A stretch of 12,950 nt of DNA from Campylobacteraceae bacterium (GTDB taxonomy: Bacteria > Campylobacterota > Campylobacteria > Campylobacterales > Sulfurovaceae), in contig JALWZK010000261.1 in assembly GCA_027002665.1 (NCBI GenBank), positions 1 to 12,950 on the forward strand. The letters run 5' to 3'. Below, piece after piece: positions 1-12,950 of the stretch. A program made the position numbers and the translations under genes. Within the stretch, counting starts at the first letter, position 1, and every line of letters starts with the position of its first letter. Below the pieces are notes generated by a model, which was not told the DNA's origin, did not search any database, and was given only the letters and a program-made list of their open reading frames with translations.

Positions 1-41
1 GAGTGGGAGTTGGCACAACTATCTTTTTAAAATTTTACTAA
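1..41 (+). CDS. 3' end of a probable sensor histidine kinase (partial)
   Basis: Only the last dozen codons are inside the window. Reading from position 3, the peptide is VGVGTTIFLKFY followed by TAA at 39-41. This resembles the final strand of the HATPase_c domain of two-component sensor kinases, where a GxGTTF-type motif and a short hydrophobic strand commonly end the protein. The match rests on very few residues. The other two plus frames also end close by (TAA at 28-30 and 50-52), so the frame choice is an inference. If correct, a response-regulator gene would probably lie just upstream of the window. Confidence 0.35.
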   Translation, partial: VGVGTTIFLKFY

Positions 42-77
42 CAGTTTGCTAATACTTTGCTAATACTTCACTAATAC
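34..77 (+). repeat. Four tandem 11-bp direct repeats upstream of a -10 box
   Basis: Four consecutive 11-base units are visible: TTTACTAACAG (34-44), TTTGCTAATAC (45-55), TTTGCTAATAC (56-66) and TTCACTAATAC (67-77). The middle two are identical and the outer two are diverged. The array ends 8 bases before the -10 box at 86-91, so it covers the -35 region and upstream. An 11-bp period is one helical turn, as in direct-repeat sites of OmpR/PhoB-family response regulators. The regulatory role is inferred. Confidence 0.6.
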
Positions 78-113
78 TTTTGTATTATAATCTTTTTATA
101 AAAAATACAAAAG
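77..113. promoter_or_regulatory. 10-bp perfect inverted repeat around the -10 and Shine-Dalgarno of the lipoprotein gene
   Basis: CTTTTGTATT (77-86) and AATACAAAAG (104-113) are exact reverse complements separated by 17 bases. The left arm touches the -10 hexamer TATAAT (86-91) and the right arm runs into the ribosome site AAAGGA (111-116). It could be an operator for a dimeric repressor. It could also be an RNA hairpin covering the ribosome site, but only in transcripts that start upstream of 77. A start at about 98 from the visible -10 would exclude the left arm from the RNA. Confidence 0.45.
86..91 (+). promoter_or_regulatory. -10 box (TATAAT) of the lipoprotein gene
   Basis: A perfect TATAAT lies 37 bases upstream of the ATG at 123. 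The expected transcript start is near 98. There is no recognisable -35; that region is occupied by the 11-bp repeats, which fits an activator-dependent promoter. Confidence 0.5.
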
Positions 114-122
114 GATTTAGAT

Positions 123-1358
123 ATGAATAGATTAACAATAGGTTCAATCATAACAGCAACACTACTTATAGTAGGTTGTGGAAATAATGGAGGTAGTAGC
201 ACTCCTACAACATCATCTCTAAGTGACTCTTCAACTCCAAGCAATAGTAGTGAAGCTAATAGTGTGGCTCAGAAGATTGGAAAAGGATATTATGTTGATT
301 CTGCCGTTGAAGGGGTAGATTATCAGTGCGATAATCAGAAAGGAACAACAGATGAGAATGGAACATTTACTTTTAAGAGTGGAAGTGATTGTAATTTCAC
401 CTTAGGAGGTATTAAGTTAAGAGATATTAATGGCTCTCTATTAGAAGATAATATTACAATATTAGAGACAAATGAGACAGTAGCTCAACTACTCCAAACC
501 TTAGATAGTGATGGAAATGCCTCTAATGGTATTCAGATATCAAAAGGTGTAGGTAAGGTAATTAGAGAGACACTACCATCTTTAAGTGATTTGAATCAAG
601 ACCTTTTAGAGGCAATCCATGATAGATTAAAGAGTGAATTAAAAGAGTATCATGGTAAAGTGGTAGATAGAAATCAGACAATAGAGCATTTAAATAGAAC
701 CAAGGCTGAATTGGAAGCGAGACATATTAGAACTCACTTAGATGTAGAAGCAGAACATAGACATAGAGGTAGAAGAGATAACAATGATTCTATGAGTGGT
801 TCTATAAATATAAATGGTCACCATAGTGAAGATAGTAATAATAGTATTAGAGATGAGTTAGATACTCATAGAGGAGATATAAATGAGACTGGACATAATA
901 ATTCATATATAGATATGGATAATAATGGTAGTATGGGTGAAGTAATGAGTGGTGTTCATACTCATTCTCATTCAAATTCAAATAGTGATGAAAACAGTTC
1001 ACCTCGTAATAGTGTAGCTAACTCTCTTGGAGATATGATGAGAGGAAATGGAGAGGAGAGAGAATCTCACAATAATCAAGAGCAACAAGAACACTCTAAT
1101 AACTCATCATCTCAATCTCATGGAGTAGATGATAATACATCTATGCCACCATTTACATCTAATATGGGAAATCACAACTCCTCTAATAGTCAAGAGCAGG
1201 AGCATTCAGGCAGTTCATCATCTCAACAGACAGGTTCACATAGTCAAAGTAACTCAGGAAATAATAGTAATCAAAGTGGTTCAGAAAATCATAACAACCA
1301 AAATAGTTCATCTAATGGAAGTAGTCACACTTCACCAACAGGAAGAAGAGGATTTTAA
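123..1358 (+). CDS. Asn/Ser/His-rich lipoprotein with an N-terminal GxYVDSAVxGVxY domain
   Basis: This is a 411-residue predicted lipoprotein. A short hydrophobic signal ends in the lipobox LIVGC with the lipidated Cys at residue 19, so the mature protein should be membrane-anchored. A Gly/Ser/Thr-rich linker (20-50) leads into a compact domain at about 52-145 beginning GKGYYVDSAVEGVDYQC. That domain has Gly-rich turns, two cysteines (69 and 90) that could form a disulfide, and the segment LLQTLDSDG (123-131). Similar domains occur in other proteobacterial lipoproteins, but the function is unknown. Residues about 150-215 are charged and probably helical. From about 215 to the end the protein is low-complexity Asn, Ser, His, Gln and Gly, including a diverged internal repeat (317-333 and 355-371). 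AAAGGA at 111-116 supports the ATG at 123. A role in surface adhesion or metal binding is only a guess. Confidence 0.8.
   Translation: MNRLTIGSIITATLLIVGCGNNGGSSTPTTSSLSDSSTPSNSSEANSVAQKIGKGYYVDSAVEGVDYQCDNQKGTTDENGTFTFKSGSDCNFTLGGIKLRDINGSLLEDNITILETNETVAQLLQTLDSDGNASNGIQISKGVGKVIRETLPSLSDLNQDLLEAIHDRLKSELKEYHGKVVDRNQTIEHLNRTKAELEARHIRTHLDVEAEHRHRGRRDNNDSMSGSININGHHSEDSNNSIRDELDTHRGDINETGHNNSYIDMDNNGSMGEVMSGVHTHSHSNSNSDENSSPRNSVANSLGDMMRGNGEERESHNNQEQQEHSNNSSSQSHGVDDNTSMPPFTSNMGNHNSSNSQEQEHSGSSSSQQTGSHSQSNSGNNSNQSGSENHNNQNSSSNGSSHTSPTGRRGF
1071..1235 (+). repeat. Diverged internal repeat in the lipoprotein low-complexity tail
   Basis: Two copies, 1071-1121 and 1185-1235, encode related peptides containing QEQQEHSNNSSSQ and QEQEHSGSSSSQ. 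They are separated by a spacer encoding a Met/Pro/Phe-containing stretch. The DNA copies share runs such as TCAAGAGCA and TCATCATCTCAA, so the tail probably grew partly by local duplication. Confidence 0.55.
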
Positions 1359-1374
1359 AGTCAATCTAATCTCA

Positions 1375-1400
1375 CTCTCTCAAATTACAGTTTGAGAGAG
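1375..1400. terminator. Bidirectional hairpin between the convergent lipoprotein and aat genes
   Basis: CTCTCTCAAA (1375-1384) and TTTGAGAGAG (1391-1400) form a perfect 10-bp stem with loop TTACAG. It sits in the 44-base gap between two converging stop codons. The T-tract after it is short on both strands, so it is a good but not textbook intrinsic terminator. Confidence 0.65.
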
Positions 1401-1402
1401 AT

Positions 1403-2122
1403 TTAACTCTCTAATCCCCAATCTATCCATAAGCCTATATCACTTGGTCTCTTTAAACTCCTTTCCAATTGCTCTAAAAAACTATCTCGACTAATGCTCT
1501 TAGCCCCAAGACTCATTAGATGTGGGGTTTCTACTTGACAATCGATAAAATCATAATCCTTTCGAACTAATATATTACAAAATATTCTAAGTGCTACCTT
1601 GGAGGCATCTGGCATAAGTGCAAACATAGACTCTCCAAAAAATGCCTTTCCCATAGATATACCGTAAAATCCACCAACCAACTTATCTTTATAGTATGTC
1701 TCAATGGAGTGTGCAAATCCCATCTCATGTAGTTTAATATAGGCACTTTTCATCTCATCTGTTAGCCATGTCCCCTCCTGCCCTGCTCTTGGAACTTTGC
1801 TACAATACTCTATTACCGCTCTAAAATTGGTATCAAATTTGACCACATATCCCTTATTTCGAATAACTCGTCGTAGAGATTTACTCTCTTTAAACTCATT
1901 CGGATACAGAATCAATCTGGGATTTGGGGACCACCATAAGATAGGGTCACCCTTATTAAACCATGGAAATATTCCACTTCTATATGCAGTTAATAGCCTA
2001 TAGGGATTTAAATCTCCTCCATAGGCCAATAGCCCTTCATCAGTTGCATATCTTGGATTTGGAAATATGTGAGCTTTTCCTATCTCAGCTATATAGAAAT
2101 CATCATCATACATTGAAGACAA
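1403..2122 (-). CDS. aat: Leucyl/phenylalanyl-tRNA--protein transferase
   Basis: Aat transfers Leu or Phe from aminoacyl-tRNA to the N-terminal Lys or Arg of proteins in the cytoplasm, creating a primary N-degron. The family signature is clear: GLLAYGGDL (30-38), LLTAYRSGIFPWF (43-55), DPILWWSPNPR (59-69), GTWLTDEM (117-124), FFGESMF (161-167) and FIDCQVETPHLMSLGA (192-207), with the conserved Glu and Gln in place. The length of 239 residues is normal. The start is interesting. GAGAGG at 2130-2135 lies 7 bases before TTG at 2122 but 16 before the ATG at 2113, so TTG is preferred. Either choice overlaps the end of clpA (by 17 or 8 bases), implying translational coupling. It is the last gene of the clpS-clpA-aat operon. 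Confidence 0.95.
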   Translation of the reverse strand: MSSMYDDDFYIAEIGKAHIFPNPRYATDEGLLAYGGDLNPYRLLTAYRSGIFPWFNKGDPILWWSPNPRLILYPNEFKESKSLRRVIRNKGYVVKFDTNFRAVIEYCSKVPRAGQEGTWLTDEMKSAYIKLHEMGFAHSIETYYKDKLVGGFYGISMGKAFFGESMFALMPDASKVALRIFCNILVRKDYDFIDCQVETPHLMSLGAKSISRDSFLEQLERSLKRPSDIGLWIDWGLES

Positions 2123-4334
2123 AATCTAACCTCTCATCTCTATATCCTATTTCTACAACTCCACCATCTTTCAATCTTCCAAATAGAATCTCATCTGTTA
2201 AAGGCTCTTTTATCTCCTTATCGATAACTCTTGCTATCTCTCTCGCTCCATATATATCACTATACCCCTCTCGTGCGATATACTCCAATGCCTCTCTATT
2301 TAATTTAATAGTTATATTTCGACTCTTCATCTGCTCATTTAATTTCTCTATCTCTCTATCCACTATTTGGACAATAACCTCAAAATTGAGATTGTTAAAC
2401 TCAACTACAGCACTCAATCTATTTCTAAACTCTGGAGAGAAGAAACTTTTTAAGGCGTTATCTGTTTTGCTACTATTATTTTTAGCAAACCCCATAACAT
2501 TAGCCTCTTTTGTGCCTATATTTGATGTCATAATTAAAATTACATTTTTAAAATCACTCACAACTCCATTATTGTCTGTAAGTTTTGCTCCGTCCATCAC
2601 TTGAAGTAGAATATTCATAATATCGGGGTGTGCCTTCTCTACCTCATCGAGAAGTAACACAGTATGGGGATTCTTTTTTATCATCTCTGTTAAGAGACCA
2701 CCCTGCTCATATCCAACATATCCCGGAGGTGCCCCTATTAGTCTGCTGAGAGCATGTTTCTCCATATATTCACTCATATCAATTCTCTCGAAATGGATAT
2801 CCATACTCTTTGCTAACTCTTCACTCAGTGCCGTCTTTCCAACTCCCGTTGGTCCCACAAATAGGAATGAGCCTATAGGTTGGTTATCCTTATTCAATCC
2901 TGCATAGGAGCGTTTAATCGCTTGGACTACACTATCTATGGCTCTATCTTGTCCTATAATTTTTCTCTTTATCCTTTTATCTAAATTTTTTAACTTAGCT
3001 GTATTATCAGTGGATACTACAGTTGATGGTAGTTTTAACATTCTGGCAACACTCTGCTCTATATCTATGCTATTTATAGTTATATCTCTTTTATCTTGTA
3101 GCATAAAGTGCGCTCCAACCTCATCTATAATATCCATTGCCTTATCAGGTAAAAATCTATCATGAAGATATTTTACACTCAAAGTAATTGCACTCTTTAA
3201 AGCCTCATCTGAAAAATGAATATTGTGATACTCTTCATATTTATGTTTAATACCTTGAAGTATCTTCATAGTATCATCAAAGTTTGGCTCCTCTATATCA
3301 ATCTTAGAGAATCTTCTCGATAGTGCCTTATCCTTATCTAAGTGGTTTCTAAATTCACTATAGGTTGTAGCTCCAATACATTTTAGCTCTCCCCTTGCGA
3401 GAGCCGGTTTTAATAGATTGGCAGCATCCATACTACCACCACTTGTAGCACCTGCACCGACTAAGGTGTGTATCTCATCTATAAATAGTATAGATTTCTC
3501 TATACTCTGAAGCTCTGTCAAGACACCTTTTAACCTCTTCTCAAAATCTCCTCTATATTTAGTTCCGGAAATCATGGAACCTAAGTCTAATGCAAATATC
3601 TTACTATCTTTCAATATTTCGGGTACACTACCTTCAGATATTTTAAGTGCTAACCCCTCTGCGATAGCAGTCTTACCAACTCCCGGCTCTCCAACCAGTA
3701 GTGGATTATTCTTCTTTCTTCTACATAGAGTCTGCATTACTCTATCTATCTCACTATCTCTACCAATTATAGGGTCAATTTTACCCTTTTTGGCAAATGT
3801 TACCAACTCCACTGTATAGGCATCTAAATTTGGATACTCCTCCTCATCTATAAACTCTATATCATTATCCTCTTCATCTTCGGTATCTTTACTCTTAAGT
3901 AGGTTGAGATGAGAAATTACCTCTAAAATATCTATTCTCTCAATCCCCTCTGCGTTCATTATCTTATATGCATAACTCTTCTCCTGAGTAAACATCGAGG
4001 CTAACATATCCCCAATAGTTGCCTCACTCTTTCCGGCACTATTTATATGCATCATCATATCATTCATAACATGTGATAGAGCTACTGTCTCATAAGGGTC
4101 ATCAATCTCCCCATTTTCATTTAGTTCTAAAACAGGCACATTATTCTTGAGATATGTTGTGGTTAATTCCTTCATATACTCGATATTGGCACCTATTGTG
4201 GATAATATCTCTCTCCCCTCGCTACTATTTAATATAGATAAAAAAATATGTTCAAGCGTAAGATACTCATGTCGATTATCTTTGGCATATCTTACAGACT
4301 CTCTAAATACTTTGTTAAGCTCTATACTTATCAT
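2106..4334 (-). CDS. clpA: ATP-dependent Clp protease ATP-binding subunit ClpA
   Basis: ClpA is the AAA+ unfoldase that feeds substrates into ClpP, including N-degron proteins handed over by ClpS. The 742 residues show the expected order: an N-terminal Clp repeat domain (about 1-145), an acidic linker (150-168), AAA-1 with Walker A GEPGVGKT (215-222) and Walker B ILFIDEI (282-288), and AAA-2 with GPTGVGKT (494-501), VLLLDEVE (559-566) and sensor region IMTSNIG (601-607). There is no ClpB-type middle coiled-coil domain. MGF at 614-616, before SPEFRNRL, falls where the ClpP-docking IGL/IGF loop is expected, so it should be a ClpP partner. AAGGAT lies just upstream of the ATG. The gene starts 19 bases after clpS and overlaps aat. 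ClpP is not in the window. Confidence 0.97.
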
Positions 4335-4758: not shown

Positions 4759-5400
4759 GTGAAATTTCTCTTTATTACAGCGACAAATACCAATATTGGT
4801 AAAACTTTTGCCTCATTAAAAATAATTGAAAATATAGCAAAACATAAAATAGAGATTGGTGTTTGTAAACCCATAGAAACTGGTGTTATTTATGAGCCTG
4901 AAGATGCTAAAAAACTCTTAGAAAAAGTTCAAATTTATAATAAAAAATTTAAATCTATGGGACCCAAAAGTGTAACTGCATACACATTTCCTCTACCCTC
5001 TGCACCATTCTGTGCTGATATAGAGAGAGAAATTAAAATAGATAAAATTAAGGAGAAAATTGAAGAGTTATCTAAACTATCTGATATATTAATTATTGAG
5101 GGGGCTGGTGGACTACTTGTTCCAATTACAAAAGATTATATGATGATAGATTTAATGCGAGATTTAAATGCTAAGGTGCTTCTAATAACTCCGTCCAAAT
5201 TGGGTTGTATAAATGATACACTACTTAGCATAGAGGCTCTTAAAAATAGAGGTATAGATTTTGATTGGTGTGTAAACTTATATCAAGATAGAGAAGAGTT
5301 TAAGAGAGTAACACAACCATTCTATGATAGCTATTTTAAGGGAGAGTGGTGGTTTTTAGATGAGGGATTGGAGAATTTTATAGAAAAGTTGCTATTATAA
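4759..5400 (+). CDS. bioD: Dethiobiotin synthetase
   Basis: BioD closes the ureido ring of biotin: 7,8-diaminopelargonate plus CO2 and ATP gives dethiobiotin. The 213-residue protein has the P-loop TNTNIGKT (9-16), the carbamate-site lysine in CKPIETG (Lys37), EGAGGLLVPI (114-123, Mg/ATP) and LGCIND (148-153, subunit interface and substrate contacts). The Asn residues in the P-loop, where E. coli has Asp and Glu, match the H. pylori enzyme, so they are lineage-typical rather than a defect. The start is GTG at 4759 with GGAG (4748-4751) 7 bases upstream. No other bio gene is in the window. Its stop is 4 bases from the next gene, so it heads an operon with three unrelated surface-decoration genes. 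Confidence 0.93.
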   Translation: MKFLFITATNTNIGKTFASLKIIENIAKHKIEIGVCKPIETGVIYEPEDAKKLLEKVQIYNKKFKSMGPKSVTAYTFPLPSAPFCADIEREIKIDKIKEKIEELSKLSDILIIEGAGGLLVPITKDYMMIDLMRDLNAKVLLITPSKLGCINDTLLSIEALKNRGIDFDWCVNLYQDREEFKRVTQPFYDSYFKGEWWFLDEGLENFIEKLLL

Positions 5401-5401
5401 A

Positions 5402-5428
5402 AATATGAAAAATATGAAAAATAGAAAA
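5402..5428 (+). repeat. 9-bp tandem repeat duplicating the start codon of the fusion gene
   Basis: Units AATATGAAA, AATATGAAA and the diverged AATAGAAAA run head to tail from 5402 to 5428. They give two in-frame ATGs (5405 and 5414) and the N-terminus MKNMKN. No Shine-Dalgarno is visible before either, so initiation probably depends on coupling to bioD. Confidence 0.5.
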
Positions 5429-6781
5429 ATAGTAATTACCTATGGAACTTACGACATGCTCCATAGAGGACATATGAATTTATTAAAACGGGCTAAGGCA
5501 CTTGGAGATTATCTAATTGTAGGCGTAACAGATGAGAATTATGACCGCTCAAGGGGGAAATTAAATGTTATTCAAAGCACAAAAAAGAGAGTAAAGGCGA
5601 TAAAGAAGCTCGATTTTGTCGATAAAGTTATAGTAGAGAAGCATAAAAAGCAGAAGGCTCAAGATGTAATCAAGTATGGTGTCGATATTTTTGCTATTGG
5701 AGATGATTGGGTTGGTGCCTTCGATTATCTAAAAGAGTTTGTAGATGTTGTATATCTTCCACGAACAGAGGGAATCTCCAGCACAAAACTCAGGAGAGAG
5801 AATTTCGATTCAATTAAGATGGGAATAGTTGGGCTTGGAAGGGATACTCAAGCTTTCATCGATGAGGCTCAATTTGTATCAAATATAAAGATAGATAGAA
5901 TCTATGGAGATGATTTTTTTGCTATTAAAAAGTTTACAAAAGAGAGTGCTATAATTAAATTTGGACATGATAATTATGATGAGTTTCTGGATAGCCCAAT
6001 TCAAGCAGTCTATATAGATACCTCCCTAAGAAAACACTATATATTAATAAAAAAGGCTCTACAAGCGGGGAAACATGTTCTATGTGAACACCCCATTGCA
6101 CTCAATAGAAAGGAGTTAAAGGAGCTATTAAGCTTAGCAAAATCTAAAAAGTTAATACTTCTTACCGCTCTAAAAACAGCCTTTTTACCGGCATTTAATC
6201 AACTCTTAAAAGAGCTTAAAAAGGGAGATATTGGCGAGATAAAGGAGGTTAGAGCTACACGAACATCTCTATATAGAGAGAAGAACTATCCCGATAGTTT
6301 TATGGAGCAGGGGGCTACAAATATATTATCGGGTTATCCATCTCTACTAATTCATAAAATCTTAGGGAAGAGAAAATCTATAAAATTTTTTGACCAGATA
6401 GAGAAAAATTATGATATTAGTAACTTAATTATCACTACCCATAAAAACAATACAATAGGAATTGCAAGAGTTGCTACAGCTATTAAATCTGAAGGAGATG
6501 CGGTTATATCTGGGACAAAAGGGTATGTATATATTCCTGCTCCATGGTGGCTTACAAGAGAGTTCTATTTTAGATTTGAAGATACACATAAGAGTTATAA
6601 GTTTCATTATGAGTTTGAGGGGTGTGGACTTAGATATATGATTGCTGAGTTTGCTTCACTTATTCAGAGAGATAAAAGAAAATCCAAAATGCTAACTCCA
6701 TCTGATATGGTATCTATTAGTAGAGTTGTATTGGATTACAATGAGTTTAAAAATAAGAGTAATAAAAAAAAGGAGAAATAA
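5405..6781 (+). CDS. Fused TagD-type cytidylyltransferase and Gfo/Idh/MocA-type oxidoreductase
   Basis: Two enzymes are joined in 458 residues. Residues 7-135 are a nearly canonical glycerol-3-phosphate cytidylyltransferase: ITYGTYDMLHRGHMNLL (11-27) holds the HxGH nucleotide-binding motif, followed by IGDDWVGAFDYL (98-109) and RTEGISSTKLR (120-130). This part should make a CDP-activated small alcohol, most likely CDP-glycerol or a relative. From Met139 a Rossmann domain of the Gfo/Idh/MocA family begins (MGIVGLGRDTQ), continuing with HVLCEHPIALN (224-234) and the C-terminal alpha/beta domain. This half is atypical: the usual GxGxxG is GLGRDT, the usual EKP is EHP (228-230), and the expected catalytic Asp region reads GATNILSGYPSLLIH (303-317) without the Asp. 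Its activity is therefore uncertain. The C-terminus is a Lys-rich tail encoded across an A8 run (6764-6771). Confidence 0.88.
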   Translation: MKNMKNRKIVITYGTYDMLHRGHMNLLKRAKALGDYLIVGVTDENYDRSRGKLNVIQSTKKRVKAIKKLDFVDKVIVEKHKKQKAQDVIKYGVDIFAIGDDWVGAFDYLKEFVDVVYLPRTEGISSTKLRRENFDSIKMGIVGLGRDTQAFIDEAQFVSNIKIDRIYGDDFFAIKKFTKESAIIKFGHDNYDEFLDSPIQAVYIDTSLRKHYILIKKALQAGKHVLCEHPIALNRKELKELLSLAKSKKLILLTALKTAFLPAFNQLLKELKKGDIGEIKEVRATRTSLYREKNYPDSFMEQGATNILSGYPSLLIHKILGKRKSIKFFDQIEKNYDISNLIITTHKNNTIGIARVATAIKSEGDAVISGTKGYVYIPAPWWLTREFYFRFEDTHKSYKFHYEFEGCGLRYMIAEFASLIQRDKRKSKMLTPSDMVSISRVVLDYNEFKNKSNKKKEK

Positions 6782-6784
6782 TTT

Positions 6785-7864
6785 ATGATATATGAAGATT
6801 ATTATATCTTTACACCGGGTCCGGTTAAGATGTCCGATGAGATTTTAGAGATTGGAGCAAAACAGACACCATACTTTAGAAATAGTAAATTTTCGGAGGT
6901 GATATTCAACTGTGAAAAGGGGCTTTTAGAGATAGTAAATGCTCCAAAAGGTAGCAGAGTAATATTTTTAACAGCTTCTGGGACTGCCGGTATGGAGGCT
7001 GCTATTATAAATCTTTTAAATAGAGATGATAAGGCATTGGTTGTTAATGGTGGTGGATTTGGACAAAGGTTTGTAGATATATGTGCAACTCACTCAATTC
7101 CACATAGAGATTTCAGAGTAGAAGATACAGATTTAACCAATATAGAGGAGTTAGCACCCAAAGCTAACTTTACTTCACTTGTTGTAAATGGTCATGAGAC
7201 ATCTATTGGACAGCTCTATAATCTCAATGCAATGGGAGAGTATGTTAGAAAGCATAATCTATTTTTTATAGTAGATGCTATTAGTATGTTAATAACCGAC
7301 CCGATTGATATGTCTGCACAAAATATTGATGTGATTATTGCAAGTAGTCAAAAGGGGTTAGCACTCCCACCCGGTTTAACAATGGTGATTTTATCTCCAG
7401 AAGCGATTGATAGAGTTCGAGATATAGATAATCTCTACTTCAATTTTAAAGATTATCTAAAAAATGGAGAGAGAGGGCAGACACCATATACCCCAGCTGT
7501 AACTATTATATTGCAGTTGGAGGCGAGATTGGCACAGATTAAAAGAAGAGGTGGTGTAAAAGAGTCTATTAAGAGAGCTAAGGAGATAGCAGAATATTTT
7601 AGAGCATCTATTAAAGATTTACCTCTAAAATTTTATACCTCATATATGCCAAATGCTATGACAACCTTAACGCCCACAGATGGCAAGAGGGCAATAGATA
7701 TAGTAAATAGCTTAGAGAAGGAGTATAAAATTATGGTCTGTCCCAATGGTGGAGATTTAAGAGATGTAATATTTAGAGTCTCTCACATGGGAGAGATGAC
7801 AAAATCTTATGTCGATGTCTTAATAGATGCAATGTTCAATTTTTATAAAATAGCGAGAAGATAG
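6785..7864 (+). CDS. Class V PLP aminotransferase, PhnW/serine-pyruvate type
   Basis: This 359-residue fold-type I, class V aminotransferase resembles 2-aminoethylphosphonate, alanine-glyoxylate and serine-pyruvate aminotransferases. It shows FTPGPVKMSDEI (9-20), ASGTAGMEAAI (64-74), VDAISMLITDPIDM (163-176) with the PLP-pairing Asp164, and SSQKGLALPPGL (187-198) with Schiff-base Lys190. The C-terminal FRVSHMG motif is typical of the family. The ATG at 6785 follows AAAGGAG (GGAG at 6772-6775) with 9-base spacing, 3 bases after the previous stop. The true amino acceptor cannot be read from the sequence. Context suggests an aldehyde or ketone on a phosphorylated or CDP-linked small alcohol. A phosphonate role is less likely because no PEP mutase or phosphonopyruvate decarboxylase is nearby. 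Confidence 0.88.
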   Translation: MIYEDYYIFTPGPVKMSDEILEIGAKQTPYFRNSKFSEVIFNCEKGLLEIVNAPKGSRVIFLTASGTAGMEAAIINLLNRDDKALVVNGGGFGQRFVDICATHSIPHRDFRVEDTDLTNIEELAPKANFTSLVVNGHETSIGQLYNLNAMGEYVRKHNLFFIVDAISMLITDPIDMSAQNIDVIIASSQKGLALPPGLTMVILSPEAIDRVRDIDNLYFNFKDYLKNGERGQTPYTPAVTIILQLEARLAQIKRRGGVKESIKRAKEIAEYFRASIKDLPLKFYTSYMPNAMTTLTPTDGKRAIDIVNSLEKEYKIMVCPNGGDLRDVIFRVSHMGEMTKSYVDVLIDAMFNFYKIARR

Positions 7865-8635
7865 GTGAATATAGAGCCTAAGATATTGAGAGAGGCTCAA
7901 CTCATTATGTTGGAGACTCTCATTGAGTTTGATAGGATTTGTAAAAAGCATAATCTGGACTATTGGTTAGATAGTGGAACTCTACTCGGTGCGGTTCGAC
8001 ACAAGGGATTTATTCCGTGGGACGACGATATAGATATAGCTATGCCCGTGGAGGATTATCAAATATTTGCAAAGGTGGCACGAGATGAATTACCAAAGGA
8101 TATGTTTCTACAGAATAGAGATACAGACCCATCATTTCCATTTGACTATATGAAAATTCGCTCATCTAAGGCTATAATTATAGAACATCATGAGAGAGGT
8201 AAAAGAGTTAATTATCATCAAGGGGTTTTTATAGATATATTTCCAATGTTTGCAATTAAAGAGACCAGATTAAACCATCTATTTTATAAATATACCTTTG
8301 CCACCATTAGATTCTTCTCTGCAAAAAAGTTTGATTGTATAAGAGTCCGAAAAGTTTTAAAAAAATCTCTTGAGAGGTTACACCTCGGTTGGGATAAAAA
8401 AGAGGGGACATCGGTTATATATAGTGGAAAGATGCCAGATGTGGCAGGAGCCTTTAAGTATAGTGCTATATATCCATTAAAAAAGATAGAGTTTGAGGGG
8501 TTAGAGTTTTTATCTCCAAATGACCCACACCACTACTTGGAGAATATATACTCATTTGACTATATGGAGCTACCTCCGATTGAGAAGAGAACCAATCATG
8601 CTTATAAGATTACTATTTTAAAAAAAAGTGACTGA
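7865..8635 (+). CDS. LicD-family phosphotransferase
   Basis: LicD-family (PF04991) enzymes move a phosphorylated group such as phosphocholine from a CDP donor onto a surface glycan; the family is related to fukutin-type ribitol-phosphate transferases. The nucleotidyltransferase core is unmistakable: LDYWLDSGTLLGAVRHKGFIP (31-51), then WDDDIDIAM (52-60) with metal-binding Asp residues, and GVFIDIFPMF further on. The length of 256 residues is normal, with no signal peptide or membrane segment, so it acts at the cytoplasmic face. The start is GTG at 7865, directly abutting the TAG of the aminotransferase gene, with the weak purine run GAGAAG upstream. A choline kinase or choline transporter gene (licA/licB) is absent from the window, and the neighbouring TagD domain is the likely source of its CDP donor. 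Confidence 0.92.
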   Translation: MNIEPKILREAQLIMLETLIEFDRICKKHNLDYWLDSGTLLGAVRHKGFIPWDDDIDIAMPVEDYQIFAKVARDELPKDMFLQNRDTDPSFPFDYMKIRSSKAIIIEHHERGKRVNYHQGVFIDIFPMFAIKETRLNHLFYKYTFATIRFFSAKKFDCIRVRKVLKKSLERLHLGWDKKEGTSVIYSGKMPDVAGAFKYSAIYPLKKIEFEGLEFLSPNDPHHYLENIYSFDYMELPPIEKRTNHAYKITILKKSD

Positions 8636-8647
8636 TTTTTTAATCAG
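8632..8647 (+). terminator. Weak hairpin at the end of licD-like gene
   Basis: CTGATT (8632-8637) and AATCAG (8642-8647) form a 6-bp stem with a TTTT loop overlapping the stop codon. It has few GC pairs and no following T-run, so termination would be partial at best; readthrough into mrp is possible. Confidence 0.25.
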
Positions 8648-8662
8648 ATAAGCTTACTCTTA

Positions 8663-8668
8663 GATAAT
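8663..8668 (+). promoter_or_regulatory. Possible -10 box for mrp
   Basis: GATAAT lies 37 bases upstream of the mrp start in an AT-rich 70-base gap that also holds a short AGTATAAA tandem duplication (8671-8686). The match is weak and the region is so AT-rich that it could be chance. Confidence 0.25.
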
Positions 8669-8705
8669 AAAGTATAAAAGTATAAAAATTAATATAGGAG
8701 TATTA

Positions 8706-9818
8706 ATGACAAAAGAAAATGTTTTAGAAGCATTAAAGAGTGTAACCTATCCGGGATTTACAAAAGATATTGTAACTTTTGGATTTGTAAAAGATATAAA
8801 TATTAACGGTAAGAGTATAGATTTACTCATAGATATTACCTCTTCAGCAGATGAGGTTAAGGCACAGATTCGAGATGATATTACAAAAGAACTCAAAAAA
8901 TTGGGATTTGATACTATAAATATAGAGATTAAAGCACCAAAACCGCCGAGACAGATGAGTAACTCTGTAACAGGTAAAAATATTGCTCCTCATGTGAAGA
9001 GTTTTATAATGGTAAGTTCTGGAAAGGGTGGAGTTGGAAAATCAACAACATCTGTAAATCTTGCAGTCGCAATGGCAATGCAAGGGAAAAAAGTTGGACT
9101 ACTTGATGCAGATATATATGGACCTAATATACCAAGAATGATGGGAATAGCAGAGCAGAAACCGGAAATTCAAGGGAATAAGGTTCTACCTCTCAGGGCT
9201 TATGGTGTAGAGGTTATGTCTATGGGTTCACTTATGGAAGAGGGGCAGTCGCTTATCTGGCGTGGAGCTATGATAATGAAGGCTATAGAGCAGTTCCTAA
9301 GAGATATTTTATGGAGTGAACTTGATGTGCTTGTGATTGATATGCCTCCGGGAACAGGTGATGCACAATTAACCTTAGCACAATCTGTTCCGGTTACAGC
9401 AGGAATTACAGTCACAACCCCTCAAGAGGTGAGTCTCGATGATAGTAGAAGAAGTTTAGATATGTTCAAAAAACTTCATATTCCAACTGCCGGAATTGTA
9501 GAGAATATGAGTGGATTTATATGTCCAGAGTGTGGCACAGAGTCGGATATTTTTGGAATGGGCACAACTGAAGCCGTTGCAAAAGAGTATAATATAGATG
9601 TAATTGCGAAAATTCCTATAGAGCCAGCTATTCGAGTTGGTGGAGATAGTGGAATGCCTATTGTCTATCATAAACCGGATTCCGAAACTGCAAAACGATA
9701 CCAAGAGGCAGCTAATAGGCTTTTAAATTTTATAGATAAGGTTATTGAAGAGGGTAGAGCAAGTAATCAAGCTATTCAACCTACAACACCACCGGGAGTT
9801 AGTGCTTGTAGCTTATAG
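8706..9818 (+). CDS. mrp: Mrp/ApbC iron-sulfur cluster carrier ATPase
   Basis: This 370-residue cytosolic P-loop ATPase of the Mrp/NBP35 family binds and delivers Fe-S clusters to apoproteins. An N-terminal MIP18/DUF59-type domain (about 1-78) is followed by the deviant Walker A SGKGGVGKST (105-114), LLDADIYGPNIPRMMG (132-147), IDMPPGTGDAQL (211-222), and the cluster-binding CxxC in ICPECG (Cys273 and Cys276). Both the ATPase site and the cysteine pair are intact. The last 20 or so residues form a Ser/Thr/Pro-rich tail. GGAG at 8697-8700 lies 5 bases before the ATG. It follows the LicD-like gene by 70 bases and is followed by a 17-base palindrome. Confidence 0.95.
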   Translation: MTKENVLEALKSVTYPGFTKDIVTFGFVKDININGKSIDLLIDITSSADEVKAQIRDDITKELKKLGFDTINIEIKAPKPPRQMSNSVTGKNIAPHVKSFIMVSSGKGGVGKSTTSVNLAVAMAMQGKKVGLLDADIYGPNIPRMMGIAEQKPEIQGNKVLPLRAYGVEVMSMGSLMEEGQSLIWRGAMIMKAIEQFLRDILWSELDVLVIDMPPGTGDAQLTLAQSVPVTAGITVTTPQEVSLDDSRRSLDMFKKLHIPTAGIVENMSGFICPECGTESDIFGMGTTEAVAKEYNIDVIAKIPIEPAIRVGGDSGMPIVYHKPDSETAKRYQEAANRLLNFIDKVIEEGRASNQAIQPTTPPGVSACSL

Positions 9819-9824
9819 TAATAG

Positions 9825-9841
9825 GGGGTTAAATTAACCCC
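9825..9841. terminator. Palindromic hairpin between mrp and the second lipoprotein gene
   Basis: GGGGTTAA and TTAACCCC are separated by a single A, giving a perfect 17-base palindrome; as RNA, a 6-bp GC-topped stem with loop AAATT is realistic. It starts 7 bases after the mrp stop and ends 7 bases before GGAG of the next gene. There is no T-tract, so it may attenuate, stabilise an mRNA end, or be a protein-binding site. Confidence 0.5.
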
Positions 9842-9856
9842 ACTTAAAGGAGTTTG

Positions 9857-10585
9857 ATGAAAAGAAGTTTATCTATTATTGCACTATTATATTTAATTGG
9901 CTGTGGAAGTAATGGAGGAAATAGTATCTCTATAGATATGGCAGACTACTATCCTAATGAAAATATGGAAAAGAGTTTCTATGTGATAACAGATAGTGGA
10001 GATAATAATCAATATGATGAGGATATATCGATAGATAGAGGTGTCATTACAGTAAAAGTTGATAATGTTGTAAAGCGAACCATTACTATTAATGATAATG
10101 GAATTATTGAAGAAGATAGTGATAGTAATCTAACTAAAACCATGAAGCGTTATATCCAAGTTGGAGAGATACTATACACTCTTCCAAAAAGCACGATTAT
10201 CCAAGATATAAAATTTGAGGATACTATCTTAGGTCATAAGAGTATAGAGGCTACTACAACATGCCGACTTGAAAGAAAATTAGATAAGTTAGATAAGTAT
10301 GATATTCAATATAGTGGAGATATTCTTAAATTTAAGTGTATAGAGGATAAAAAGATTAAGACTGAGGTCAGAGATAACCTACCGGACTATATCAATCTAC
10401 AAGATGGTGAAGAGAGGTCGGACTATAATATCTCCTATTTCTATATGGAAAAGAGTGTGGGATTGATTGCTATTATAGATGATGACTGCATTATAGATGA
10501 TAAAACGAATGGTAAAACACGAATTAACGATACAAGTTTAAGATGTAAACAAAAGAGATATACCCATACATTTTATTTAAAGTAG
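9857..10585 (+). CDS. Predicted lipoprotein of unknown function
   Basis: This is a 242-residue protein with a short hydrophobic signal and lipobox YLIGC (Cys16 lipidated), then a Gly/Asn/Ser linker much like that of the lipoprotein at 123-1358. I do not recognise the mature domain. It begins near DYYPNENMEKSFYVI (30-44), is rich in Asp, Ile and Lys, looks beta-rich, and has four further cysteines (136, 161, 211 and 230) that could make two disulfides. This suggests an envelope location outside the cytoplasmic membrane. The start is ATG at 9857: AAAGGAG (ending 9852) is 4 bases away, whereas the TTG at 9854 would leave only one base. The 17-base palindrome just upstream may separate it from mrp or tune its expression. 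Confidence 0.75.
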   Translation: MKRSLSIIALLYLIGCGSNGGNSISIDMADYYPNENMEKSFYVITDSGDNNQYDEDISIDRGVITVKVDNVVKRTITINDNGIIEEDSDSNLTKTMKRYIQVGEILYTLPKSTIIQDIKFEDTILGHKSIEATTTCRLERKLDKLDKYDIQYSGDILKFKCIEDKKIKTEVRDNLPDYINLQDGEERSDYNISYFYMEKSVGLIAIIDDDCIIDDKTNGKTRINDTSLRCKQKRYTHTFYLK

Positions 10586-10999: not shown

Positions 11000-11551
11000 T
11001 TATAGTCGTTGTAATTTTTTAAGGGCATATTTCACAATAGAGGCAGTATCGCCAGATGCTCCCTTTATTGCAGATTGAATATGCTCCCCCTTAAATCCAA
11101 GACTTTCCAATGCTAAGATTGCATCTCTAAGACTACTATCTATACTTTTACCACTATCAATAGTAAAATCGGATAGCTCAACCAAAATTCTATTAGCAGA
11201 TTTTATTCCAATTCCCGGCACCTGCTTTAACATTTTACTATTTCCATTTGCAATAATCTCCGCAAAAGTGGTTGGAGAGAATGTAGAGCAGACTGCCATT
11301 GCCACCTTTGAACCAATCCCATTAATCTTAATAAGTGTATCAAACATCTTCTTTTCATTTTTATCTAAAAAGCCAAATAGGAGATTTGTATCTTCTCTAA
11401 TAATCTGCGTTAATAGAAGTTTTACCCTATCCTCTACAATACGGTTTGATGTATTTATAGATATATGCACCTCATATATCAATCCATTTGTATTTATATG
11501 TAGTAGAGTTGGCTCTTTCTTCTCAATAGTTCCTTCAATTCCTACCAACAT
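11000..11551 (-). CDS. ruvA: Holliday junction branch migration protein RuvA
   Basis: RuvA forms tetramers that hold the four-way DNA junction and recruit the RuvB motor during recombination and repair. The 183-residue protein has the N-terminal OB-fold ([19 protein letters not shown]), then tandem helix-hairpin-helix motifs INGIGSK (76-82) and VPGIGIKSA (111-119) that bind the DNA backbone. An acidic or Ser-rich linker leads to the C-terminal RuvB-binding domain (from about 140, [14 protein letters not shown]). It is slightly shorter than E. coli RuvA (203 residues), mostly in the linker. GGGAG at 11559-11563 on the minus strand precedes the ATG by 7 bases. It is divergent from murJ; no ruvB or ruvC is in the window. 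Confidence 0.96.
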
Positions 11552-11579
11552 TTAAAATCTCCCGATAAATATTAACAAA

Positions 11580-11588
11580 AGTATATCA
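11580..11588 (-). promoter_or_regulatory. Extended -10 promoter of ruvA
   Basis: The minus strand reads TGATATACT, that is TGn followed by TATACT. The predicted start near 11573 leaves a leader of about 22 bases that keeps the GGGAG ribosome site. Confidence 0.45.
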
Positions 11589-11593
11589 AGTTT

Positions 11594-11602
11594 TGCTAAA
11601 AT
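11594..11602 (+). promoter_or_regulatory. Extended -10 promoter of murJ
   Basis: TGCTAAAAT is an extended -10 with one departure from TATAAT. It ends 6 bases before the murJ ATG, so the expected transcript start coincides with, or nearly with, the start codon. Confidence 0.4.
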
Positions 11603-11608
11603 TCCATT

Positions 11609-12950
11609 ATGAAATTAAAATCTATATTTACAAACAGTTTTGGCATTCTATTTTCAAGGGTTACAGGTTTAACCCGAGATGTTATTATGGCTTCAGCACT
11701 TGGAGCATCTATCTATACAGATATGTTTTTTATCGCTTTTAAATTTCCAAATCTATTTAGACGAATATTTGCCGAAGGTGCATTTACACAAGCCTTTATG
11801 CCATCATTTGTAGCCTCTAAACATAAAGGGGTATTTGCTACTGCCATATTTTTAAGATTTATGCTATTTATATTTATAATCTCTCTTATAGTTACTCTAT
11901 TTCCAGAGCTTGTAACTAAACTCTTAGCTTGGGGTTGGAGTGAAGATTTAATCGAAAAAACTGCCCCATTGACTGCCATAAACTTTTGGTATCTCGATTT
12001 TATATTTATGGTTACATTTTTAGCAACTCTATTACAATATAGAGAACACTTCGCAACAACTGCCATCTCAACCTCTCTTCTAAATATATCTATGATTAGT
12101 GCAATGTTAATATATATGCAGAGTGACCCTAAAGTGATTGTATATGCTCTTAGCTTTGGAGTTTTAATTGGAGGTATCTTACAGGTAGTTGCACATTTAA
12201 TTACAATAAAAAGATTTAAGCTACATAAGATACTTATAGGTGGTTGGAGATATAGAGATAAAAAAGATGTTCAAAATGAGAAGAGAAACTTTACTAAACT
12301 ATTTATTCCATCGGTTTGGGGAAACTCTGCACCTCAAATATCATCATTTCTCGATACATTTCTCGCATCTTTTCTAATTACAGGCTCTGTCTCATATCTA
12401 TTCTATGCAAATAGAGTATTTCAACTCCCATTAGGAATTATTGCGATAGCCACGGCAACTGCCCTATTCCCATCTATCTCAAAAGCCCTAAATAGAGATG
12501 ATACAGAGGGGGCATATAGTAATCTCTCAAAAGCCTTTTGGCTACTCTCTTTTCTATTGGGTGCATCTGTCGCAGGAGGAATAATTCTATCAGAGCCTAT
12601 TGTTTGGCTACTATTTGAGAGAGGTGCATTTACAAAGCTTGAGACCTTAGAGACTGTAAAGGTGCTTAGAATGTATATGATAGGACTTATGCCCTATGGG
12701 TTTGCTAAACTCTTCTCTATGTTTCTATATGCCTCCAATCGACATGGAAAAGCTGCTAAGATAGCTACAATTGCACTTATAGTAAATATAGTTACCTCCT
12801 TTATACTTATAAAACCTTTGGGTGCTATGGGGTTAGCACTGGCAGGAAGTGTTGGTGGTTGGGTTCTATTTATCTTAACTATAAGAGAGGTTGGGTTTAA
12901 TAGATTTTTTACTATTATAAAATCAAAAAATAGTATCTATTTCTTACTAT
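11609..12950 (+). CDS. murJ: Lipid II flippase MurJ (3' end beyond the window)
   Basis: The reading frame from ATG 11609 stays open to the end of the window: 447 codons, so the last transmembrane helices (roughly 20-60 residues) are missing. MurJ (MviN, MOP superfamily) flips lipid-linked peptidoglycan precursor across the cytoplasmic membrane. Recognition rests on the N-terminus, FSRVTGLTRD (15-24) and FKFPNLFRRIFAEGAFTQAF (44-63), which carry the conserved arginines equivalent to E. coli Arg18, Arg24 and Arg52. Many hydrophobic helices follow, along with the mid-protein segment YLFYANRVFQLPLGIIAIATA. No purine-rich ribosome site precedes the ATG, and the next in-frame ATG falls inside the conserved RDVIMAS segment, so 11609 is the start. 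A leaderless mRNA is possible. It is divergent from ruvA with a 57-base shared gap. Confidence 0.95.
   Translation, partial: MKLKSIFTNSFGILFSRVTGLTRDVIMASALGASIYTDMFFIAFKFPNLFRRIFAEGAFTQAFMPSFVASKHKGVFATAIFLRFMLFIFIISLIVTLFPELVTKLLAWGWSEDLIEKTAPLTAINFWYLDFIFMVTFLATLLQYREHFATTAISTSLLNISMISAMLIYMQSDPKVIVYALSFGVLIGGILQVVAHLITIKRFKLHKILIGGWRYRDKKDVQNEKRNFTKLFIPSVWGNSAPQISSFLDTFLASFLITGSVSYLFYANRVFQLPLGIIAIATATALFPSISKALNRDDTEGAYSNLSKAFWLLSFLLGASVAGGIILSEPIVWLLFERGAFTKLETLETVKVLRMYMIGLMPYGFAKLFSMFLYASNRHGKAAKIATIALIVNIVTSFILIKPLGAMGLALAGSVGGWVLFILTIREVGFNRFFTIIKSKNSIYFLL

Follow-up and report, generated by a model that had tools for sequence, protein, structure and literature searches.

Organization of the cassette

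The stretch of DNA analyzed here (hereafter, the window) is contig JALWZK010000261.1 (C261), of 12,950 nt, from the assembly GCA_027002665.1 of a Campylobacteraceae bacterium (genome G000; 1.55 Mb in 343 contigs, 86 % complete). It contains three adjacent genes coding for a protein that joins a TagD-type cytidylyltransferase to a Gfo/Idh/MocA domain (hereafter, the fusion), a class V pyridoxal phosphate (PLP) aminotransferase and a LicD-family transferase, separated by gaps of 3 and 0 bases, respectively. A previous reading made from the sequence alone (the original prediction) proposed that they form a cassette for a decoration linked to cytidine diphosphate (CDP), and its coordinates, gaps, domains and motifs agree with our results. 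The features of the cassette are as follows:

5405..6781, + strand: TagD-Gfo fusion protein, 458 aa (PF01467 and PF01408; TIGR01518; PDB 1coz; alignments)
5813..6163, + strand: Rossmann half of the Gfo domain, decayed, with the GLGRDTQ and CEHP stretches (PF01408 match; motifs compared with those of 21 stand-alone Gfo proteins)
6785..7864, + strand: class V PLP aminotransferase, 359 aa (PF00266; TIGR03301; 3f0h; motifs SSQKGL and FRVSHMG)
7865..8635, + strand: LicD-family CDP-alcohol phosphotransferase, 256 aa, with a GTG start (PF04991; motif WDDDIDIA)

The N-terminal domain of the fusion (about residues 8–132) matches CTP_transf_like (PF01467; residues 11–131, 8.8e-20), contains the motifs HRGH (HxGH) and RTEGISSTK and, in a PDB search, is closest to the TagD structure 1coz (1.8e-36), followed by 3elb (7.5e-16) and 4zcp (2.6e-10). 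Nevertheless, its score with the glycerol-3-phosphate cytidylyltransferase equivalog TIGR01518 (125.8 bits) is under the cut-off of 165.4. The Gfo/Idh/MocA domain spans about residues 136–450, with a match to GFO_IDH_MocA (PF01408) at residues 137–253 (8e-18; 65.7 bits vs. a cut-off of 24), and the closest structure to the C-terminal half is 3e9m (9.3e-20).

The aminotransferase matches Aminotran_5 (PF00266, 4.7e-20), and its closest solved structure is 3f0h (8.4e-94), the next one being at 2.5e-29. It had been described as PhnW-like, and TIGR03301 (PhnW/AepZ) is indeed its best NCBIfam match, but with 170.7 bits it falls under the cut-off of 360.8; the enzyme is related to PhnW/AepZ and yet distinct from them. 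Class V aminotransferases have a Lys that forms the Schiff base and an Arg that binds the carboxylate; the corresponding motifs, SSQKGL and FRVSHMG, are present in all 71 aminotransferase segments scoring >300 bits, including that of the window. The third protein matches LicD (PF04991; 2.7e-42, 145.8 bits vs. a cut-off of 22.6), and its gene is the sole LicD gene found in the assembly. The motif D-D/H-D-x-D occurs in 82 of 95 LicD-type segments.

Conservation and distribution of the cassette

With a threshold of E ≤ 1e-20, 47 of 149 related genomes gave a hit to the fusion, several of these hits covering the TagD part alone. Among these relatives, the aminotransferase gene adjoins that of the fusion in all the 29 best-matching loci (L004–L032), indicating that the arrangement is not due to chance, and the LicD gene comes next in 26 of them; the sequences of the other three (L007, L011 and L015) stop before the LicD position. 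We also compared longer stretches from the window and 20 hand-picked relatives. In a six-frame count, 17 of these 21 loci have an aminotransferase and LicD near the fusion, 16 of them in the exact order fusion, aminotransferase, LicD. Locus L041 has two LicD genes upstream of the fusion, L051 has the aminotransferase at the contig end, and L040, L042 and L043, from lower-ranked relatives, contain a fusion without the aminotransferase. The neighbors of the 16 cassettes with the exact order belong to 11 protein clusters upstream and 12 downstream. From these comparisons, the three genes almost certainly form a single unit involved in one pathway.

A wider scan of genome contigs (genome_contigs) retrieved at least 593 stretches, of which 565 encode a relative by tblastn, some of them perhaps not complete fusions. 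We retained the 80 top-ranked loci, each with a full fusion; the ranking used a Faecalibacterium-like query, which makes the sample uneven. Taxonomically, the 80 loci are spread over Bacillota, Bacteroidota, Methanobrevibacter, Planctomycetota and Elusimicrobiota, and they include gut microbes of the genera Faecalibacterium, Segatella, Prevotella and Methanobrevibacter. Additionally, a plasmid of Ruminococcus albus (L053) carries, in a polysaccharide cluster, the gene order LicD, aminotransferase, fusion, LicD. The alignments described below include 105 fusions: these 80, the 21 from the window and its relatives, and those from L053, L056, L057 and L058.

Partners were counted in six frames within 4.5 kb of the fusion. 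LicD is found in 45 of the 80 loci, 37 times alone, five together with a LicC-like protein and three with a transferase of the CDP-glycerol glycerophosphotransferase type. The other 35 loci have the glycerophosphotransferase type alone (8), a LicC-like protein alone (1) or none of the three (26). LicD is therefore the commonest transfer partner of the fusion, but not the sole one.

Some of the database records call for comment. The fusion from L057 (MT837899.1, labeled Bacteriophage sp.) is 99 % identical to that from a Faecalibacterium prausnitzii contig (L059), and the record resembles bacterial DNA. Likewise, L054 (NZ_CP084075.1) is a Fusobacterium vincentii record of 2.1 Mb that is chromosome-sized yet filed as a plasmid.

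Probable degeneration of the Gfo/Idh/MocA half

In the Gfo/Idh/MocA family, the lysine of the EKP motif has a catalytic role. The window fusion has EHP (H229) at this position and, among the 105 aligned fusions, the column contains S (70 sequences), N (17), A (7), T (4), K (2), P (2), H (1, the window), I (1) and M (1). The catalytic Lys is thus missing in 103 of the 105 fusions, and it is absent from all 96 PLP-partnered fusions. For comparison, 16 fusion-bearing genomes were searched for PF01408; the 30 loci listed comprise nine fusions and 21 stand-alone Gfo proteins, and the Lys is kept in 19 of the latter, the other two having Val. The G-x-G dinucleotide motif is also lost in 72 of the 105 fusions, and that of R. 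albus has a gap of >20 residues in the Rossmann half (424 aa vs. 445 aa for the fusion from L057). Conservation across 102 fusions was uneven along the protein, with values of 0.81 for the TagD part, 0.45 for the first Rossmann stretch and 0.72 for a late C-terminal stretch containing a PAPWW motif. The conservation of this late stretch suggests that it is probably under selection for a role other than hydride transfer.

Several caveats apply to this loss. The G-x-G motif is kept in the window (GLG, in GLGRDT), in 20 of the 21 loci of the window and its relatives and in 33 of the 105 fusions overall, so that the proteins of the window group could possibly still bind a dinucleotide (NAD(P)). 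Loss of the Lys alone has a precedent with altered activity, in the GH109-type EVP proteins, and the 105 fusions contain near-copies (e.g., L057/L059 and L113/L114). Besides, the fusions from L040 and L042, without a PLP partner, keep both the EKP Lys and a GTGRIA motif, which makes an active ancestral dehydrogenase likely. Weighing both sides, the Gfo half is very probably not a working dehydrogenase. The term "dehydrogenase-like" that it had received would then be true of its ancestry, as attested by the PF01408 match, and not of its expected activity. The oxidation step assigned to it is not supported by the distribution of the Lys and G-x-G motifs, even if the window keeps GLG.

Two types of variant deserve mention in their own right. 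The fusions at L040 (positions 9199-10536) and L042 (positions 6527-7888) may be working CDP-alcohol dehydrogenases representing the ancestral form. In turn, locus L056 (positions 5797-8758) has a fusion with EIP and GTGRIA; a short-chain dehydrogenase and LicD come next, and there is no PLP enzyme. This locus may be a reductive version of the cassette.

Exchange of PLP enzymes beside the fusion

The class V aminotransferase is replaced in part of the loci by a HisC-like enzyme: of the 80 loci, 49 have only the aminotransferase, 25 only the HisC-like enzyme, one has both and five have neither (Fisher p 9e-15 for the split). The protein from L120 is a different, general aminotransferase and was left out of both the HisC-like model and the partner count. 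We examined three HisC-like proteins, which score 224-240 bits with HisC (cut-off 276.6) and 134-158 bits with the threonine-phosphate decarboxylase CobD. When the HisC-like label was mapped on a tree of the fusions (80 rows, inferred with a quick method) it required 15 changes, at least five of them forced by starred branches, and a single HisC-like clade was rejected, at a cost of 272.6 log units (approximately unbiased test, p-AU 3.8e-7). The fusions from L068 and L077, for instance, are 83 % identical and have different PLP partners.

The interleaving of the two labels on the tree suggests that both enzymes probably make the same product and supply the same substrate to the cytidylyltransferase. 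HisC acts on a 1-phospho-2-ketone, and HisC-type enzymes and class V transaminases have in common the transamination of keto-phosphates; dihydroxyacetone phosphate (DHAP) would therefore fit both. Three observations temper this interpretation. Shuffled labels required a mean of 21.6 changes, and 15 or fewer were obtained in only 1 of 500 shuffles, which means that the HisC-like label is clustered and that the exchange would be repeated but not free. Moreover, five loci have neither enzyme, two of them (L090 and L121) lying near a contig or locus end, and the HisC-like enzyme could instead be a serine-phosphate decarboxylase. A search for relatives of the HisC-like enzyme across 248 genomes of the order of the window retrieved one weak match (25 % identity) and did not identify the Campylobacter jejuni proteins Cj1436/Cj1437.

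Cytidylyltransferases associated with the aminotransferase

Searching with the aminotransferase only, we found it in 14 of 151 genomes around Segatella and in 4 of 197 around Faecalibacterium. Within 1.5 kb flanks, these 18 loci contain a fusion (10 loci, two of which, L171 and L185, are from genomes already in the set), a TagD-like protein alone (6), a LicC-like protein (1) or none of these (1). In seven of the 18 loci, therefore, the aminotransferase is accompanied by a cytidylyltransferase without a Gfo domain, suggesting that the Gfo half is dispensable for amination.

The six stand-alone TagD-like proteins share a DEL..YKGM.P loop with the TagD-like protein from the Bacteroides finegoldii locus L055. 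The best whole-chain PDB match of the latter is the ethanolamine-phosphate cytidylyltransferase 3elb (2.7e-28, with two domains summed), and the LicC-like protein from Fusobacterium (L054) has the phosphocholine cytidylyltransferase 1jyk as its nearest structure (1.3e-14), with PntC (6pd1) in second place. The partner cytidylyltransferases are thus of a kind that activates amino-alcohol phosphates, which speaks for formation of the amine as the first step; amination would then probably precede activation by cytidine triphosphate (CTP). This differs from the order of the original prediction (CTP activation, oxidation and amination), which is not supported: several partners lack a Gfo domain, and DHAP needs no oxidation. 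In the fusion itself, the substrate loop has Asp in all 105 sequences, where the TagD structures 1coz and 2b7l have Asn.

Two other points complicate the assignment of an amino-alcohol substrate. The L055 protein scores higher with TagD as a single domain (73.7) than with either domain of 3elb (61.2 and 38.5), so that 3elb wins by sum only. In addition, the TagD domain of the fusion is nearest to glycerol-3-phosphate enzymes, and unmodified glycerol phosphate would fit it too.

The aminotransferase also occurs in less usual settings. L188 (positions 1-1475, - strand) has the aminotransferase, a LicC-like enzyme and a CDP-alcohol phosphatidyltransferase in a row, and the donor may here also serve for a lipid head group. 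In L187 (positions 1-4038), the aminotransferase lies by two LicD-type segments and a protein of the ornithine cyclodeaminase family, and no cytidylyltransferase was found in the flanks.

Proposed pathway and alternatives

We propose a pathway in which the PLP aminotransferase would use an amino-acid donor to convert a keto-phosphate, most likely DHAP, into serinol phosphate (2-amino-3-hydroxypropyl phosphate); the TagD-type domain would then produce CDP-serinol from serinol phosphate and CTP; and LicD would move serinol phosphate from the CDP donor onto a surface glycan, or onto another acceptor. The Gfo/Idh/MocA half would be a pseudo-dehydrogenase, retained as a binding module or scaffold, and there would be no oxidation step. 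DHAP is a ubiquitous ketone of central metabolism; as it is already a ketone no oxidation is needed, and its ubiquity suits a portable three-gene unit, which requires a substrate available everywhere. Serinol phosphate, in turn, is the 2-amino analog of glycerol-3-phosphate, the substrate of TagD. A CDP-linked cassette with an amino-alcohol product is supported, the proposed order of its steps has good support, and a serinol-like alcohol, also suggested by the original prediction, is our favored candidate, although the chances that it is serinol are about even; the same holds for the complete route from DHAP through serinol phosphate and CDP-serinol to transfer by LicD. Weighing against it are the 26 loci with none of LicD, the glycerophosphotransferase type and LicC within 4.5 kb, mentioned above.

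The strongest alternative keeps the same order of steps with ethanolamine as the alcohol: the HisC-like enzyme would decarboxylate phosphoserine, and the class V enzyme would reach phosphoethanolamine otherwise, e.g., from glycolaldehyde phosphate. In agreement with this, the three HisC-like proteins also match CobD, and ethanolamine-phosphate cytidylyltransferase-like and LicC-like enzymes adjoin the aminotransferase; likewise, Cj1436 turns L-serine phosphate into ethanolamine phosphate (PMC11800397). The HisC-like proteins score higher with HisC than with CobD, with the caveat that scores across models are not strictly comparable, and the exchange of partners is simplest if both enzymes transaminate to the same product. 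To our knowledge, moreover, decarboxylation of phosphoserine would be unexpected for a class V transaminase, and we are not aware of glycolaldehyde phosphate as a standard metabolite. We consider ethanolamine unlikely on balance.

Slightly less likely still is another small aminated phosphate, such as 3-amino-1,2-propanediol phosphate (from glyceraldehyde-3-phosphate) or a four-carbon amino-polyol phosphate. The best NCBIfam match of the aminotransferase, PhnW/AepZ, acts on aldehydes, and the substrate loop of the fusion is unlike that of TagD, both of which would suit such a compound; the TagD ancestry, however, would favor a three-carbon analog of glycerol-3-phosphate with a free terminal phosphate, and the HisC-like alternative would favor a 1-phospho-2-ketone such as DHAP.

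The pathway first envisaged for the cassette, from glycerol-3-phosphate to CDP-glycerol, followed by oxidation by the Gfo domain, amination on the CDP carrier and transfer, appears improbable. Activation, oxidation and amination in this order are known for UDP-GlcNAc3N, the window keeps GLG, and fusions with an intact EKP exist (L040 and L042). Conversely, the absence of the catalytic Lys from every PLP-partnered fusion, the seven aminotransferase loci with a Gfo-less cytidylyltransferase and the gapped Rossmann half of the R. albus fusion are difficult to reconcile with an oxidation on the carrier.

Lastly, a disguised aminoethylphosphonate pathway of the PntC kind, with phosphoenolpyruvate (PEP) mutase encoded elsewhere in the genome, is highly improbable, even though the aminotransferase resembles PhnW/AepZ and PntC of Treponema denticola joins a cytidylyltransferase and a class V aminoethylphosphonate transaminase in one protein (6pd1; PMC6697681). 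PEP mutase, choline kinase and LicC are all missing from the cassette itself, as had been noted, and a PEP mutase elsewhere in the genome that clearly supplies these enzymes had been named as evidence that would refute the original prediction. PEP mutase (TIGR02320) did not exceed the cut-off in any of 17 genomes or records bearing the fusion or the aminotransferase, including the 86 % complete G000 and, as W01, the R. albus plasmid only; there was a weaker match in one of them (G022, 121.7 bits vs. a cut-off of 319.6). Among 12 further genomes or records, a single match was over the cut-off (G669, 420 bits), which shows that the search was able to detect the enzyme, and six others were far below. 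The locus of G669 (L077) has a HisC-like partner, and no search was made for an aminotransferase elsewhere in this genome. Similarly, phosphonopyruvate decarboxylase (TIGR03297) was over the cut-off in none of 15 genomes, with weak matches in all 15 and, likewise, in 13 of 14 control genomes. As a single one of the 29 genomes or records had PEP mutase above the cut-off, the phosphonate interpretation was dropped. A choline kinase (LicA-like, PF01633) had no match in G000, and in 7 of 15 genomes there were partial matches of 33-41 bits (cut-off 29) that cover part of the model only.

Genes for GNAT acetyltransferases are found beside or near the fusion in L124 (positions 5481-5984), L134 (positions 7316-8116) and L053 (positions 11146-11943), and their products perhaps acetylate the amino group.

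Relationship to known systems

The cassette combines a PLP enzyme, a cytidylyltransferase and a CDP transferase, as in the Pnt pathway, in which a PLP enzyme and a cytidylyltransferase lead to surface transfer (PMC6697681). Both PntC of T. denticola (Tde1415, 6pd1) and the cassette pair a class V aminotransferase with a cytidylyltransferase, with amination first, as predicted for the cassette, and a donor presumably destined for surface molecules; Pnt differs in having a LicC-type instead of a TagD-type cytidylyltransferase, in needing PEP mutase and in lacking a Gfo domain. The phosphocholine pathway (LicA, LicC and LicD) shares with the cassette the CDP-alcohol donor and the LicD transferase, but the cassette has neither choline uptake nor kinase, its cytidylyltransferase is of the TagD type and its alcohol is predicted to come from the PLP enzyme. 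Compared with TagD (1coz), the fusion retains the fold, by homology, and the HxGH and RTEGIS motifs, while differing in its score under the equivalog cut-off, the change from Asn to Asp, the altered loop and the degenerate Gfo domain attached. Finally, the Kennedy-type ethanolamine- and choline-phosphate cytidylyltransferases (3elb and 4zcp) activate amino-alcohol phosphates with a related domain, although the fusion is nearer to TagD.

A precedent for the first step exists in C. jejuni, where Cj1437 converts DHAP into (S)-serinol phosphate by transamination; the amino-alcohol phosphate is joined through an amide bond by Cj1438, and Cj1435 removes its phosphate group (PMC11800397). Cj1436/Cj1437 resemble the proposed cassette in that PLP enzymes produce the small amino-alcohol phosphates destined for a surface polysaccharide; in place of the amide coupling of C. 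jejuni, the prediction here is activation by CTP and transfer by LicD. Serinol has been described in the C. jejuni capsule (PMC12096443, PMC13276843), the available text of these papers containing no mention of CDP-serinol, and the N-palmitoyl serinol of commensals is a different compound.

The open-access papers searched contained no mention of "CDP-serinol", which is weak evidence since only open papers are covered, nor did it yield papers combining serinol with LicD, or LicD with Gfo and a cytidylyltransferase; only the PntC paper combined LicD, phosphoethanolamine, an aminotransferase, a cytidylyltransferase and a polysaccharide. The cassette had been termed possibly undescribed, and no open paper was found that contradicts this, but the logic of a PLP enzyme, a cytidylyltransferase and surface transfer is already known from PntC (PMC6697681). 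The cassette appears to be a widespread variation on the known theme of CDP-alcohol decoration. It is conceivable, if somewhat short of an even chance, that it represents an unrecognized third route to a CDP-amino-alcohol (CDP-serinol) beside Lic and Pnt, with two unrelated PLP enzymes as interchangeable suppliers of serinol phosphate and a dead dehydrogenase domain that is kept on the cytidylyltransferase; such a route, if real, would span gut bacteria, the lineage of the window and methanogenic archaea.

LicD-type decorations such as phosphocholine are recognized by host immune proteins. If a CDP-amino-alcohol route whose product is unnamed in the annotations that we inspected is widespread among gut microbes, the reading of their surface polysaccharides would change. 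Two exchangeable PLP enzymes by one cytidylyltransferase also yield a substrate prediction that can be tested, and the putative pseudo-dehydrogenase cautions against deducing the oxidation of a CDP-alcohol from domain names.

Genomic context of the window cassette

The gene immediately upstream, considered for context only, is:

4759..5400, + strand: bioD, dethiobiotin synthase (TIGR00347, 132.2 bits vs. a cut-off of 83.3)

It ends 4 bases before the fusion gene, and the transcription unit may consequently start upstream of position 5405. This neighbor is common to two close relatives (G014 and G016) and is absent beside the other 13 complete cassettes compared. The flanks of the window consist of housekeeping genes, namely bioD and mrp (by profile matches), a gene for a ClpA-like ATPase, and clpS and aat, these two named by eye; housekeeping flanks are also found in the two close relatives. 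The window was therefore ruled out as a capsule or O-antigen locus, whereas the sets from R. albus (L053) and B. finegoldii (L055) do sit inside polysaccharide clusters. The products of two other open reading frames of the window, at positions 123-1358 and 9854-10585, begin, judged by eye, with a lipobox-like sequence and match no Pfam family; that of the first is long and rich in Asn, Ser and His.

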